Shown here piece after piece: positions 42,146 through 56,455 of a stretch of 64,000 nucleotides of DNA. This DNA is from Pseudomonas oryzihabitans (GTDB lineage: Bacteria > Pseudomonadota > Gammaproteobacteria > Pseudomonadales > Pseudomonadaceae): the NCBI RefSeq assembly GCF_014522265.1, contig NZ_CP017024.1:3260001-3324000 (forward strand). The letters run 5' to 3'. The position numbers and the translations under genes are program-made. Position 1 is the first letter of the stretch. Each line of letters opens with the position of its first letter. Below the pieces are notes generated by a model. It worked only from the letters and a program-made list of their open reading frames with translations. It did no database searches and had not been told where the DNA came from.

Positions 42146-42303
42146 AGAACCTATTCTTGATCTGCTGCGCGTCGGCCAAACGGCGTTGAAAATAGCTTCG
42201 GAATGCTCATTTACCACTCGTAAACTCGAACGCGAGTGCGATCCGCTTCCTCAACCATTTTCACCTTGTTTGTCTCTAGCTCGCGAGATCGAGAACAGGT
42301 TCT
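42146..42303. repeat. MITE-like palindromic element, copy A
   Basis: Imperfect terminal inverted repeats AGAACCTATTCTTGATCT (42146-42163) and AGATCGAGAACAGGTTCT (42286-42303) match at 16 of 18 positions. The core CTTCGGAATGCTCATTTACC and the following ACTCGTAAACTC are shared with copy B at 53600-53740. The core contains the small hairpin TTTAC-CACTC-GTAAA and the arms GAAAAT/ATTTTC, so the whole can fold as one long hairpin. Its right edge coincides with the opmB stop codon. It has no coding capacity. Confidence 0.75.
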
Positions 42304-51670: not shown

Positions 51671-52504
51671 TCAATCCAGGTCGGCCGCCGAATGCCGCTC
51701 GGCCAGTTGCTCGCCCGGCTCGCCCCAGGTGCGATTGACCCGCCGACCGCGCTGCACCGCCGGCCGTGCGGCGATGGCCTGGGCCCAGCGCTGCACGTGG
51801 GTATAGTCCTGCACCGCGAGGAATTCCGCGGCGTTGTACAACTGGCCCAGCACCAGGTTGCCGTACCAGCTCCAGATGGCGATGTCGGCGATGCCGTAGT
51901 CCTCGCCGGCCACGTAGCTGCGCTCGGCCAGCAGGCGGTCGAGCACATCGAGTTGGCGCTTGGCTTCCATGGCGTAGCGGTTGATGGGGTATTCGAGCTT
52001 TTCCGGCGCATAGGCGTAGAAATGCCCGAAGCCGCCGCCGAGGAAGGGCGCCGAGCCCATCTGCCAGAACAGCCAGTTCAGCGTCTCGGTGCGACCGGCG
52101 TGATCCTTCGGGATGAAGGCGCCAAAGCTGTCGGCGAGATAGAGCAGGATGGCGCCGGACTCGAAGACGCGCAGCGGCTCGGCGCCGCGCCGATCCACCA
52201 GGGCCGGGATCTTGGAATTCGGATTGATCTCGACGAAGCCGCTGGAAAATTGCTCGCCCTCGCTGATGCGGATCAGCCAGGCATCGTATTCGGCGTCGCC
52301 ATGTCCGGCCGCCAGCAGCTCTTCCAGCAGGATGGTCACCTTCATGCCGTTGGGCGTGCCCAGCGAATACAGCTGGAAGGGATGCTCGCCGACCGGCAGC
52401 TCCTTGTCGTGGGTCGACCCGGCGATGGGGCGGTTGATGCTGGCGAAGTTACCGCCGGAGGTGGTGGGGGTCCAGACGCATGGGGGCGTGTAGGGTTCGC
52501 TCAT
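51671..52504 (-). CDS. yghU: Glutathione S-transferase family protein (YghU-like)
   Basis: A 277-residue GST with an N-terminal extension, as in YghU/YfcG-type disulfide-bond oxidoreductases. After about 45 residues the thioredoxin fold begins FQLYSLGTPNGMKVTILLEE; NPNSKIPALVDRR contains the cis-proline and the ESGAILLYLAD motif binds glutathione. The C-terminal helical domain ends with RPAVQRGRRVN. The ATG at 52504 is chosen because homologues begin MSEPYTPP. It faces the AraC gene across 112 bp in the same direction. Confidence 0.9.
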   Translation of the reverse strand: MSEPYTPPCVWTPTTSGGNFASINRPIAGSTHDKELPVGEHPFQLYSLGTPNGMKVTILLEELLAAGHGDAEYDAWLIRISEGEQFSSGFVEINPNSKIPALVDRRGAEPLRVFESGAILLYLADSFGAFIPKDHAGRTETLNWLFWQMGSAPFLGGGFGHFYAYAPEKLEYPINRYAMEAKRQLDVLDRLLAERSYVAGEDYGIADIAIWSWYGNLVLGQLYNAAEFLAVQDYTHVQRWAQAIAARPAVQRGRRVNRTWGEPGEQLAERHSAADLD

Positions 52505-52616
52505 GGTGGCTCTGTCCTCGGTCGGCACGGATGGGTAGTTCGATCATAACCGAACTTTGCGCCAGGTCTGTTCAGTGGCTCTCACGCTGGCAACAAACCG
52601 GATCAAGGAAAGCCGC

Positions 52617-53519
52617 TCAGGCGTTCTGTTCGGTCAGGCGCTGCACCGTCAGGCTGCGGTACTGGCGCGGGGTCATGCCCTTGAGCTGGTGGAAGCGTCG
52701 ATTGAAGTTCGAGATGTTGTTGAAGCCGGCCTCGAAGCAGATGTCGGTGACCGGCATGCTGCTGTGGGAGAGCATCTCGCAGGCCTTGCTGATACGCAGG
52801 CTGTTGACGAATTCGACGAAGGTGCGCCCGGTGGCCTGGCGGAAGAAACGCGAGAAATAGGTGGGCGTCATGCCCAGGTGCTCGGCCACTTCTTCCTGGG
52901 TGAAATCACGCTGGTAGTGATCGAAGATGAAATTCAGCGCCCGGTTGGTGCGATCCACGGCCTGCTCGCTGGCCGTGGCCGGCTCGACGCTGCCCGACAG
53001 CAGCTGATAGCGCTCCGAGGTGGCCAGTGCCTCCATCAGCACCAGGAAATGACCGAGTCGGGTGGCGCCGCCGCTCTCCGAAATCTGTTGCAGCAACGCC
53101 TCGGCGCGGGCGATCAGCTGCGGATCCTGGAATTCGATGCCGTAGCGGGCGCGCTCCAGCAGCGGCGCCAGGCCGCTGAGTTCGGGAAACACCGCGGTGG
53201 CGTTGTCCACCGTCTCGTTGGTGAAGTTGACCAGCATGTCGCGCTTGGCCACCACCTCGCCCTCGGCGACGCGGCTGATCCAGTTGTGCGGCAGATGCGG
53301 ACCGGTAAGGAAAAGGCTGCCCGGATAGAAGTTGCCGATGTAGTCGCCGATGAAGGCGGTCCCCGAACTGGCCACGATCAGGTGCAGCTCGTATTCCTTG
53401 TGGAAATGCCAGCGCACCAGCGGGCAGGGAAAGCCATGCTCCCGATAGATCACCGAGTGACCGCTCAGGTCCTCCATCAATTCGTAGGAGGGATTGCGCT
53501 TGCGCAAGGACTGACTCAT
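52617..53519 (-). CDS. AraC family transcriptional regulator
   Basis: A 300-residue regulator. The N-terminal about 150 residues form a cupin-type sensing domain (CPLVRWHFHKEYELHLIV contains the cupin histidines). The C-terminal AraC double HTH reads EVAEHLGMTPTYFSRFFRQA and VTDICFEAGFNNISNFNRRF. Its target is unknown; regulators of this layout often control carbon-source uptake. It is 80 bp from the MITE-like element and shares the minus strand with the GST and GNAT genes. Confidence 0.9.
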   Translation of the reverse strand: MSQSLRKRNPSYELMEDLSGHSVIYREHGFPCPLVRWHFHKEYELHLIVASSGTAFIGDYIGNFYPGSLFLTGPHLPHNWISRVAEGEVVAKRDMLVNFTNETVDNATAVFPELSGLAPLLERARYGIEFQDPQLIARAEALLQQISESGGATRLGHFLVLMEALATSERYQLLSGSVEPATASEQAVDRTNRALNFIFDHYQRDFTQEEVAEHLGMTPTYFSRFFRQATGRTFVEFVNSLRISKACEMLSHSSMPVTDICFEAGFNNISNFNRRFHQLKGMTPRQYRSLTVQRLTEQNA

Positions 53520-53599
53520 CGACCGCCCCGTGATTCTTGTTGGCCTTGATCCTGGCCCTGTTCGGCGTCCAGTACAACCCCGGGTTCAGCCGGCCCTTC

Positions 53600-53740
53600 G
53601 GTCCTGTACGAAAAGTGCCTGCGCTCGGTGATGCTTCGTTGAAAAAGGCTTCGGAATGCTCATTTACCACTCGTAAACTCCGCTTCCTCAGTCTTTTTCG
53701 CCTCGCCTGACCTTCGCTCGGCGACTTTTCGTACAGGACC
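53600..53740. repeat. MITE-like palindromic element, copy B, with 17-bp perfect inverted ends
   Basis: GGTCCTGTACGAAAAGT (53600-53616) and ACTTTTCGTACAGGACC (53724-53740) are perfect 17-bp terminal inverted repeats enclosing 107 bp. Inside, GAAAAAGGCTTCGGAATGC pairs imperfectly with CCGCTTCCTCAGTCTTTTTC around the TTTAC-CACTC-GTAAA hairpin. The core (CTTCGGAATGCTCATTTACC ACTCGTAAACTC) is identical to copy A. No transposase is encoded. It covers the 3' end of the GNAT/C39 gene. Confidence 0.85.
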
Positions 53741-54823
53741 TAGGATCACCGCTGCGCGCAGCTTGCCGCGGCCGAAGCGACTCATCTTGTCGAACTCGGC
53801 GTGGGACACCGGGATGTGCTGGCAGTCCAGTTCGCGGCGGTGCTGGCTGTGGTCGACATCGGGATCGTGCAGGTAGACGAAGTCCTCGTCGCAGTCGGTG
53901 ACCAGCACCCAGTGCGGTCCCTTGGCCTTGGTCAGCCGGAAGGAGCTGATCAGCACCAGCGGGAAGGCGCCCTGGTTGACCCAGTGGGCGATGTCCAGGC
54001 GCGTCCGGTAGAGGCGCTCGATGGGCGATTGCTTGATCTCGGCGCTGAAGTCCTCGTGCACCAGGCGCATGACCTCCTTCTTTTCTTCGCTGCGTACGCC
54101 GTCGAGGAACAGGGGGCCCCGGGTATTGACCTGCAGCGTGACCCTGAAGCCCCGGCGCAGCGCGGCCAGGGCCAGGCCATGGGGGCCGCAGCCGCCGTGC
54201 CCGGCGGTCATGTAGATGGTGGTGGCTTCGCGCCACAGCCGCAGTTCCTCGCGGCGCTCCAGCGGGCGACCAGGCTGCAGGGCGCCCATGGCCATCAGCA
54301 GGCTGGCCGGGCCGCAGGTGAAATCGGTGGTCTGGCGATAGAAGGGCACCGGGCGCGCCTGGCCTTCGCGCGGCTGGCGGATGCGCTTCTCGAAGCGCAG
54401 GGCCTGGCTATGGTCCTCGTAGTAGTCCTCCACCGTGGCGAAGGGCAGGTAGCCGTTGCGCTCATAGAGAGCGATGGCGGCGGCGTTGTCCGGCCGGACC
54501 TCAAGGCGCAGGTAGGCGCAATCGCGCTCCACCGCCTCGGCTTCGGCAGCCTCCAGCAGCCGCTGGCCCAGGCGATGGCCGCGCGCCGCGGGGTCGACGG
54601 CGATGGAATAGAGCCGCGCCAGCGAGGTGTTCTGGTGGAACAGCACCAGGGCGTAGCCCGCCACCTGGCGGTCGTTTTCCGCCAGGATCAGCACGGCGTT
54701 CGCCCGGGTGAGCATGTAGTGGAAATTGCGCCGGGAAAGGCGGTCATAGCTGAAGCAGCGCGCTTCCAAATCGACCAGCGCCGCCAGATCATCCAGCCCG
54801 GCGGGCCTGAGTGTGAAACTCAT
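53660..54823 (-). CDS. GNAT acetyltransferase fused to a C39-like peptidase domain
   Basis: A 387-residue two-domain protein. Residues 1-145 are a GNAT domain: acetyl-CoA loop SIAVDPAARGHRLGQRLLEA and ALYERNGYLPF. Residues about 160-360 are a C39-like (DUF3335) peptidase domain with the cysteine in FYRQTTDFTCGPASLLMAMG and a histidine in GPHWVLVTD followed by HDPD. The last 26 residues and the stop come from the inserted palindromic element, so the native C-terminus was replaced. It is divergent from an ATP-grasp ligase; the two probably act together on a peptide substrate (inference). Confidence 0.85.
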   Translation of the reverse strand: MSFTLRPAGLDDLAALVDLEARCFSYDRLSRRNFHYMLTRANAVLILAENDRQVAGYALVLFHQNTSLARLYSIAVDPAARGHRLGQRLLEAAEAEAVERDCAYLRLEVRPDNAAAIALYERNGYLPFATVEDYYEDHSQALRFEKRIRQPREGQARPVPFYRQTTDFTCGPASLLMAMGALQPGRPLERREELRLWREATTIYMTAGHGGCGPHGLALAALRRGFRVTLQVNTRGPLFLDGVRSEEKKEVMRLVHEDFSAEIKQSPIERLYRTRLDIAHWVNQGAFPLVLISSFRLTKAKGPHWVLVTDCDEDFVYLHDPDVDHSQHRRELDCQHIPVSHAEFDKMSRFGRGKLRAAVILGPVRKVAERRSGEAKKTEEAEFTSGK

Positions 54824-54962
54824 CGCGAAGGATTCTCCTGGAGCAGAGCGGGCAGCCTGGCATGGTTAAGCAACGGTTAATAGCACCCGCGTTACAACAG
54901 TTGGAGTGGTCCGGCGGCATCCGGGTTTCCGCCGGGACCACGCCCCGCAACCAGGAGGTCCA

Positions 54963-56455
54963 GTGAGCAAGCTGTATATCGTCGTGGAACGCAAGGAAGA
55001 CTGGTCGTCCTACTATCCCAGCGAAGACGTCATCACCGCCCAGGAATACCTGGAACAATCCAACGAACAGGACAATGGCAAACGCGTGCAGGTGATCAAT
55101 CTCTGCCGCAGCCAGAAGTACCTCGGCCACGGCTACTACTGCTCGCTGCTCGCCGAAGCCCGGGGCACAAGGTCATCCCCTCGGTGCGCACCATCAGCGA
55201 ACTGGCGCGCAAGTCGCTCTATGGCCTGGCGCTGGAGGACCTGGACAAGCTGCTGACCAAGGCGCTGGCCGGTCATCCCTATGGCAGCGCCGACGGCTTC
55301 ACCCTCACGCTCTATTTCGGCAACACCGACATCGCGCCCCTGCAGGATCTGGCGCGCCAGGTGTTCGAGGCCTTTCCCTGTCCACTGCTGCTGGTGGAAT
55401 TCCGCCGCGATCGCGCCGGCTGGCACATCGGCGGCCTCAAGCTGGGCAGCATCCACAAGTTGCACGAACAGCAGGAAGATCAATTCGCCAACGCCCTCGA
55501 CGGCTTCAGTCGCCGCGTCTGGCTCAAGCCGGGGCGGCGCGAAAAATACCGTTTCGACCTGGCCATCCTGCACGACCCCAAGGAAGCCTTTCCGCCGTCA
55601 GATGCCAAGGCGCTGAAGAATTTCGTGCGCGTCGGCAAGCACCTGGGGCTGGACGTGGAGCTGATCGAAAAGAAGGATTACGCACGGCTGGGTGAATTCG
55701 ACGCCCTGTTCATCCGCGAGACCACCGCCATCGACCACCACACCTATCGCTTCGCCAAGAAGGCCGAAAGCGAGGGCCTGGTGGTGATGGACGATCCACG
55801 TTCCATCCTGAGATGCACCAACAAGGTCTATCTGGCCGACCTGCTGCGCGCCCACAAGCTGGACATGCCGGCGACCGAGATCCTCTACAAGGACAATCCC
55901 GGTCAACTCGAAGACCTCGGCGAGCGCCTGGGCTTTCCGCTGGTGCTGAAGATCCCCGACGGCTCCTTTTCCCGCGGCGTCATCAAGGTCGAGGACGCGG
56001 CGCAGCTGCGCAAGGCCAGCGCCGAACTGTTCGAACGCTCGGTGCTGCTGCTGGCCCAGGAGTTCTTCTACACCGAATACGACTGGCGCATCGGCGTGCT
56101 GAACCAGGAGCCGATCTTCGCCTGCCAGTACTTCATGTCCAAGGGGCACTGGCAGATCTACGACCACAGCGCCAGCGCCACCGAGGTCAGTGGCGATTTC
56201 CGTACCCTGGCAGTGCAGGACGCGCCCCATGCGGTGGTCGAGCTGGCGGTACGCACCGCCAACCTGATCGGCGATGATCTCTATGGCGTGGATCTCAAGC
56301 AGGCGGGCGACAAGCTGGCGGTGATCGAGGTCAACGACAATCCCAACATCGATTGCGGGGTCGAGGACCTGGTGCTCAAGGACGATCTCTACGCCCTGGT
56401 GCTGGAGGAATTCATCCGGCGGCTGGAGTCGCAACGCGGCGGACAGCCCTGGTAA
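54963..56455 (+). pseudogene. RimK-family ATP-grasp ligase, frameshifted as sequenced
   Basis: A RimK-like alpha-L-glutamate ligase of about 497 residues after repair. The N-terminal about 65 residues (SKLYIVVERKEDWSSYYPSE) are in one frame and the rest in another; one extra G in GGGG at 55162-55165 joins LLAEARG to HKVIPSVRTISEL. The ATP-grasp core has FPLVLKIPDGSFSRGVIKV, GDDLYGVDLKQ and the metal-binding VIEVNDNPNIDCGVED. The start is the GTG at 54963 with AGGAGG upstream. Such enzymes add amino acids to protein or peptide carboxylates. It is divergent from the GNAT/C39 gene. Confidence 0.82.

Follow-up and report, generated by a model that had tools for sequence, protein, structure and literature searches.

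An ERIC-type palindromic element with IS5-type ends at the 3' end of a GNAT/C39 gene in Pseudomonas

The 141-bp element that lies over the 3' end of a GNAT/C39 gene in Pseudomonas oryzihabitans is of the ERIC kind, with wider hosts and borrowed IS5-type ends, and is worth follow-up. Judged from its sequence and those of its relatives, it probably represents a set of ERIC-type hairpin bodies with exchangeable ends that are moved in trans by IS5-type transposases. The fusion of the element to the gene is real, yet most likely incidental. Strain typing makes wide use of ERIC repeats; "ERIC-type elements (broad sense)", as used below, is a term of this analysis. The gene was found in a 64-kb stretch of DNA (the window, i.e., the whole stretch that was analysed), which is part of a genome of 5.05 Mb denoted G000. 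Papers are cited by PMC number.

The Element and Its Insertion Site

A sequence-only reading of this DNA had claimed a 141-bp palindromic element with perfect 17-bp inverted ends over the 3' end of the gene. This was confirmed by the complementarity of the arms, 53600-53616 and 53724-53740, which are 17 nt each, 100% complementary and separated by 107 nt. The features of the window are as follows:

53600..53740, minus strand: ERIC-type MITE, 141 bp; the core strand is the minus strand, sense to the gene
53724..53740, minus strand: outer inverted repeat GGTCCTGTACGAAAAGT, end class A; the gene meets this end first
53600..53616, minus strand: outer inverted repeat, far end
53741..53742, no strand: TA target copy, gene side
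53598-53599: other TA target copy, mutated in G000, TA in G010
53633..53707, minus strand: structured core, 75 nt (covariance model R2, 85.5 bits; G000:C1:3313633-3313707)
53657..53683, minus strand: core motif GCGGAGTTTAC-GAGTG-GTAAATGAGCA, containing the gene's stop TGA 53662-53660
53660..54823, minus strand: host gene, GNAT acetyltransferase + Peptidase_C39-like (DUF3335), 387 aa
52617..53519, minus strand: AraC-type regulator gene, downstream, same strand
42180..42270, minus strand: another copy of this kind of element within the window (R2, 91-nt core match, 55.2 bits; G000:C1:3302180-3302270)

Target-site duplications, proposed earlier as a check, were borne out in one genome. In G010, the flanks read atccTA-GGTCC..GGACC-TAaggg (hyphens mark the element boundaries), with TA on both sides, whereas in G000 and G005 they are TA/GA, the far copy reading GA. 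Duplication of a TA target is also described for ERIC (PMC2759123). The duplication, which may be TA, TNA or a longer CTAG type, is not visible in the flanks of several other copies.

No intrinsic terminator (a GC-rich stem followed by a U run) was found in 53450-53900, where shuffled sequences gave an average of 0.5, and no promoter-like patterns were found around the focal element. Rfam 15 gave no matches at E ≤ 1 across 52000-56000 of the window, and none at the gathering threshold in seven loci, two of which were ERIC loci.

Copies in the Genome and Their Position Relative to Genes

That the element is non-autonomous and mobile, as had been claimed, is borne out by the comparison of empty and filled sites (see below) and by its copies in the genome. 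BLAST with the element gave at least 41 matches in G000 (the best 40 of 91 candidates were scored), and the R2 core model gave 68 matches with E values of up to 0.01, of which 64 reached E ≤ 0.001; the recurrence is therefore not due to chance. A search of G000 for exact paired 17-mers with a gap of 60-90 nt, shorter than the 107 nt of the focal copy, gave no matches. The second copy in the window (locus L346) has a longer core match (91 nt), and a predicted gene stops at its edge.

Neighbouring genes were predicted by codon usage, not taken from annotation, for all 68 copies in G000 with their flanks. A predicted gene runs on into the core at the focal copy alone (1/68); in a second set of 68 copies, from GC-rich contigs of other genomes, a predicted gene overlaps the element in two (L085 and L179). 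Far more often, namely in 33 of the 68 G000 copies, the stop codon of a predicted gene sits at the element edge, as expected if the elements insert into the TA or TNA of a stop codon, or if the TA and the first G of the element together form TAG. Such edge-stop genes are more often antisense than sense to the core, by 27 to 10 in G000 (with both at four copies; p = 0.0076) and by 19 to 8 in the second set (p = 0.052). When every gene end up to 60 nt away is counted, G000 has a weak bias (40 antisense versus 28 sense, p = 0.18), though for the second set the ratio is 32 to 14 (p = 0.011). The antisense excess at the edges hints that a sense hairpin is costly in the mRNA.

These counts bear on the possibility that the element serves as an RNA device at the 3' end of the gene, its hairpin altering the stability of the mRNA or the coupling between the GNAT/C39 and AraC genes, by analogy with ERIC in Yersinia, where ERIC is reported to affect transcripts (cited in a 2024 review of MITEs, PMC10969869). 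The AraC gene follows in the same direction, so that codirectional genes flank the element, and its core is on the sense strand. The antisense bias of the edge-stop genes is compatible with an effect on transcripts, and a 2007 review (PMC2229807) describes orientation as crucial for the effects of ERIC on upstream transcripts. However, the focal copy has the sense orientation, which is the less common one, the bias within 60 nt is weak in G000, and neither a terminator nor a promoter pattern was detected nearby. We consider such a role possible but doubtful. The same terminator search also gave no support to the earlier suggestion that the long hairpin ends the transcript.

The Core Is a Conserved Hairpin

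The core of the family is GCGGAG-UUUAC-N5-GUAAA-UGAGCA, placed between covarying stems with tandem G.A steps; other copies have GCGGAGTTTAC-N5-GTAAATGAGCA in common despite different ends. We examined 150 unique contexts that had been found by the exact core, pairing not being a criterion. The four base pairs adjoining the core were 90-95% Watson-Crick in these contexts, and the tandem G.A step was retained in 79-81%. Stem positions 7-10 were 77-81% Watson-Crick, with GC, CG, AT and TA pairs at positions 8-10, and a CAAGGC / AACGC loop recurs beyond the stem. The core strand had a more stable fold than its complement in 145 of the 150 contexts.

Covariation was counted in two alignments; a third, A3, combines different phyla and was set aside. 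The first, A1, was chosen for good pairing: 165 exact-core contexts were reduced to 113 with at least 7/10 stem positions paired, to 47 after near-identical sequences (≥87%) had been dropped, and to 30 with at least 9/10 positions paired, of which three out-of-register rows were removed to leave 27. In A1, both partners vary at 14 of the 23 pairs, and there are 108 cells with both-sided changes, compared to a mean of 26.7 upon shuffling and at most 29 when the partners were slid. The second alignment, A2, consists of 62 matches fitted to model R1 and includes the weak or mirror matches L242 1663, L105 4658 and L244 1602. It has 316 both-sided-change cells versus 79.3 after shuffling, and the apical stem, which is invariant by construction in the exact-core scan, covaries too. 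G-U occurred 37 times and A-C 11 times in 98 in-register sequences in which 11 or more of the 14 pairs were Watson-Crick; this preponderance of G-U wobbles points to the core strand as the folding strand.

The elements thus have the long single hairpin, maintained by pairing, of ERIC-type elements in the broad sense. The data favour selection acting on the core strand as a single strand, either RNA or DNA. Alternatively, strand-switch repair of palindromes could preserve the pairing without selection, and this counts against our reading of a selected fold.

Distribution of the Core among Bacteria

When 369 genomes of the class were searched with a pattern that tolerated two mismatches, four genomes gave matches, among them G000 with 47; a backward control pattern gave none. 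An exact core scan of species genomes yielded at least 118 stretches, and the core was found in Gammaproteobacteria, Nitrosomonadales and Bacteroidota. Among the 80 matches listed were Pseudomonas, Halomonas, Salinicola, Marinospirillum, Methylophaga and Nitrosomonadales and, in the Bacteroidota, Alistipes, Tidjanibacter, Pedobacter and Lentimicrobiaceae; the Bacteroidota copies among the matches listed mostly form a separate subtype. With the narrower model R1, 95 of 398 genomes of the phylum had a match at E ≤ 0.001, 45 of them from family f220. Many of these genomes are metagenome bins, so that single taxon assignments may be wrong.

Copies were counted with R2 in 11 further genomes, chosen because the core was present, and nine of these had at least 10 (Rikenellaceae L111, 50; Alistipes L077, 48; L119, 60; L191, 10; Lentimicrobiaceae L145, 90; Tidjanibacter L152, 37; Pedobacter MAG L105, 25; Nitrosomonadales L076, at least 150; Methylophaga L083, 4; L061, 66; L062, 7).

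Several further observations were made on these copies. Family f220 (45 small genomes) carries related cores; two copies from genome G429 (L233 and L248) were read, and the apical stem is CUUAC/GUAAG, as in ERIC, in one and CGUAC/GUACG in the other. The core gave no match in phage records, while the exact core occurs in six viral-contig stretches (L193-L198, with L194 and L196 from one contig). An extra module (..CCGGGCTGGCGATCCAG.. or a close variant) occupies one and the same position within the right stem of L007, L009, L017, L030 and L072 despite the different ends of these elements, and other modules occur in the left stem. The sharing of modules within elements looks like recurrent module exchange.

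A literature search with core sequence strings returned no paper on repeats of this kind among the matches listed. Searches for ERIC outside enterobacteria and for IS5-type ends on an ERIC-type core, mainly in freely available literature, returned nothing describing the wider family, although a paper on ERIC in Gammaproteobacteria (Zo 2011) may bear on it.

Terminal Repeats Shared with Insertion Sequences

By a motif test of their ends, the 68 G000 copies were divided into class B (35), A (11), A2 (10), D (5), mixed (4) and none (3). In 66 insertion sequence (IS) loci, obtained by transposase-domain searches of 13 genomes of the genus, we found inverted pairs of these ends with up to two mismatches and 700-1500 bp apart for class A (six), B (three), A2 (five) and D (four). 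By our count, these 18 locus matches correspond to nine separate ISs, several of which were fetched twice. Shuffled ends gave no matches in 20 repeats for every class. Matching ISs included the following:

Class A: IS L278, 910 bp; 0 and 1 mismatch over 17; TA flanks
Class B: IS L283, 833 bp; 0 and 0 mismatches; TNA-type flanks
Class A2: IS L291; 1 and 1 mismatch over 16
Class D: ISs L369 and L370, 868 bp; 1 and 1 mismatch

The focal end GGTCCTGTACGAAAAGT has one mismatch to end GGTTCTGTACGAAAAGT of IS L278. The ISs with matching ends are 760-910 bp long, carry IS5-type transposase domains and are found in sister genomes, and element classes A, B, A2 and D thus share their ends with autonomous-looking ISs. 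Their assignment as IS5-type rests on the DDE_Tnp_1 and DUF4096 domains, which we take to be linked to IS5, and on their size and TA/TNA targets.

Among 13 genomes of the genus, DDE_Tnp_1 and DUF4096 were each found in six and DDE_3 in four. In G000, profile searches for DDE_3, DDE_Tnp_1 and DUF4096 gave no match to PF13358, PF01609 or PF13340, and its copies therefore have no such partner in that genome now, which weighs against our main reading. G005 has 22 DUF4096 matches and G000 none, i.e., element copies persist without likely movers. An IS630-type DDE_3 partner was considered and rejected: DDE_3 is missing from G000, and the matching ends belong to elements with DDE_Tnp_1 or DUF4096.

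A rival account takes the element for an ordinary MITE, the product of internal deletion in an IS5-type element, with nothing between its ends but functionless remnants of the IS. In its favour, the ends match those of IS5-type ISs, as was proposed for MITEPsy1 and ISPsy2 (PMC3189936). However, the likeness between the elements and the ISs that were read ends after ≈17 bp, and the loose core pattern was absent from 64 of the 66 IS loci, including the first 36 fetched. The core matches in the remaining two, L381 and L392, were discarded as chance since neither has a paired apical stem. The interior does not come from these ISs; rather than shortened copies, the elements are IS ends on an ERIC-type body. 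Furthermore, the elements that share this core have no fewer than four kinds of ends, the core is not confined to one phylum, and its stems covary. An origin as an ordinary MITE is therefore unlikely.

From the shared ends and the target type, we infer that IS5-type transposases move the ERIC-type bodies in trans, as would be expected by analogy with known elements. MITEPsy1 of Pseudomonas syringae is a 100-bp MITE with ends like those of ISPsy2 (listed as "IS5?") and a CTAG or YTAA target; it can alter the 3' end of a gene and has been shown to transpose (PMC3189936). Its printed ends differ from those of the focal family, the comparison being one of ends and description alone. RUP of Streptococcus pneumoniae has ends that match IS630-Spn1 and a TA target, and trans mobilisation was proposed for it (PMC2229807); compared by ends and target alone, it differs in that its partner is IS630 and not IS5-type.

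Relation to ERIC

ERIC (also IRU or RU-1) resembles the focal family in being an imperfect palindrome of ≈130 bp with a TA target and a long hairpin, and is likewise described at gene 3' ends, where it can supply protein C-termini. The ERIC core was confirmed in 5375 of 5426 E. coli genomes. ERIC sites in E. coli and others follow the same plan, GGCGACAAGCGAG..GAG-CTTAC-ATAA-GTAAG-TGA..GAGCGAACGCAG..ACGCAGCA. Common to ERIC and the family are the apical GAG-YUUAC-loop-GUAAR-UGA and the loop pair CAAGG / AACGCAG, while the apical part of the family is slightly longer in the model alignment.

The R2 covariance model was built without ERIC sequences. We applied it to six ERIC sites: the E. coli ybhJ/ybhI site, which was present in two strains and counted once, and five sites picked for spread from 40 listed plasmid rows, Salmonella rows being excluded. 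In five of the six, the best match of R2 in the locus falls on the ERIC core, consistent with membership of ERIC-type elements in the broad sense. The scores were 21.1 and 19.4 bits in the two E. coli strains, 31.6 bits in Pantoea (E = 3.6e-6), 25.3 in Klebsiella (E = 1.5e-4), 23.3 in Lelliottia (E = 4.9e-4) and 15.9 in Rahnella (E = 0.04). The site that R2 missed (1/6) is a divergent ERIC, L262, on an E. coli plasmid. For the E. coli site, the scores of R1 were 17.2 and 15.1 bits. At ≈20 bits, an ERIC would probably be lost in the background of a whole enterobacterial genome.

Common descent with ERIC, or a very close functional likeness to it, is thus well supported, although not proven. The focal element is nevertheless distinct from ERIC proper. 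Its terminal repeat GGTCCTGTACGAAAAGT is unlike the ERIC ends in L199 and L258-L262, the ends of the focal family being IS5-type. Unlike those of ERIC, its hosts lie far outside the Enterobacterales and Vibrionales (Pseudomonas, Halomonas, Nitrosomonadales, Alistipes and others). An IS with the end of ERIC itself was sought in plasmids, and 243 records matched; no annotated feature lay under any of the 60 matches listed, and L426, examined for the same purpose, gave no lead.

The Host Gene and Its New C-Terminus

The host protein comprises an N-terminal GNAT domain (residues 15-125) and DUF3335 (residues 159-361). The DUF3335 match stops at residue 361, and residues 362-387 are encoded by the element: the frame enters it at 53740 and stops at the TGA at 53662-53660, giving a tail, GPVRKVAERRSGEAKKTEEAEFTSGK, of 26 residues. 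The reading of the frame thus upholds the earlier claim that the element gives the protein its last 26 residues and stop codon.

The gene was searched in 37 related genomes and was whole or nearly so in 12 of the same genus, G000 included. (In G001 the match begins at residue 37, and G004 has weak matches only; L047, L049 and L050, which gave no usable match, are left out of the comparison.) Three of the 12 orthologues carry the element, at the same TA: G000, G005 (L032) and G010 (L034). The other nine (L033, L035-L040, L041 and L042) are without it. Seven of these (L033 and L035-L040) have the same downstream context, and their proteins end in LRAAVILRTG, LRAAVILRAG, LRAAVVLRAG or LRAAVVLRPA, followed by the stop; L041 and L042 are in a different downstream context. 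None of the nine ends in the 26 residues, in agreement with the sequence-only reading. In the carriers, the ancestral ending of the gene (..GGCTGAACCC) is still found downstream of the element.

The tail is 26 residues long in G000 (ending at TGA), 30 in G005 (TAA) and 14 in G010 (TAG), and its first 14 residues are common to the three. The differences in length and stop codon are caused by differences in the inner parts of the element. The comparison of empty and filled sites therefore indicates that one insertion swapped three residues for a new tail that has not been held constant. With its C39 domain intact and a tail that drifts, the fusion has most likely been neutral.

The "mobile C-terminal tag" of the sequence-only reading is not supported, and that the tail was recruited because it is useful to the GNAT/C39 protein is highly improbable: the frame is open in all three genomes and the first 14 residues agree, but the tails vary both in length and in sequence, they lie beyond the end of the domain match, nine orthologues of the same genus do without, and a single G000 copy in 68 is read into the core. 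By comparison, Rickettsia palindromic elements are also read in frame within genes, and there such insertion is described as frequent (review, PMC10969869). This type of fusion, in which an ERIC-like repeat supplies a C-terminus, is already known: in an amidase gene, ERIC (RU-1) at the 3' end removed the stop and added residues past the domain (Delihas 2007, PMC2759123), which is the same event as the GNAT/C39 insertion.

Discussion

In the mechanism that we propose, the element is a non-autonomous body of ≈100 nt, which would fold as a single long hairpin whose internal loops are conserved, between terminal repeats of ≈17 bp that match those of IS5-type insertion sequences. One such IS would have provided the transposase in trans for its insertion in an ancestor of G000, G005 and G010, at the TA of a leucine codon (CTA) that stood four codons ahead of the stop. 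CTA-GG would read through rather than form TAG, and translation would run on to the in-frame stop in the core, so that three residues were replaced by 26. Selection would act on the body and not on the tail, the stems changing by compensatory pairs and the loops being fixed, and the ends would be open to exchange.

A wider reading, to which we give about even chances, is that ERIC belongs, as one branch among others, to an ancient class of hairpin parasites which spans phyla and whose members swap their ends for those of the IS5-type IS active in the host. The folded core, as RNA or single-stranded DNA, would then have been kept by compensatory change in both Pseudomonadota and Bacteroidota. 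The core would be the functional unit, perhaps as a site for a host factor or as a means of reducing cost to the host, and the ends would be disposable.

The R2 model gives annotators a handle on a repeat that was unmatched by Rfam 15 here. A family whose core crosses phyla and whose ends match ISs opens both the mover of ERIC and the conservation of its core to testing. If true, the cross-phylum reading would suggest where to seek the enzyme that mobilises ERIC.
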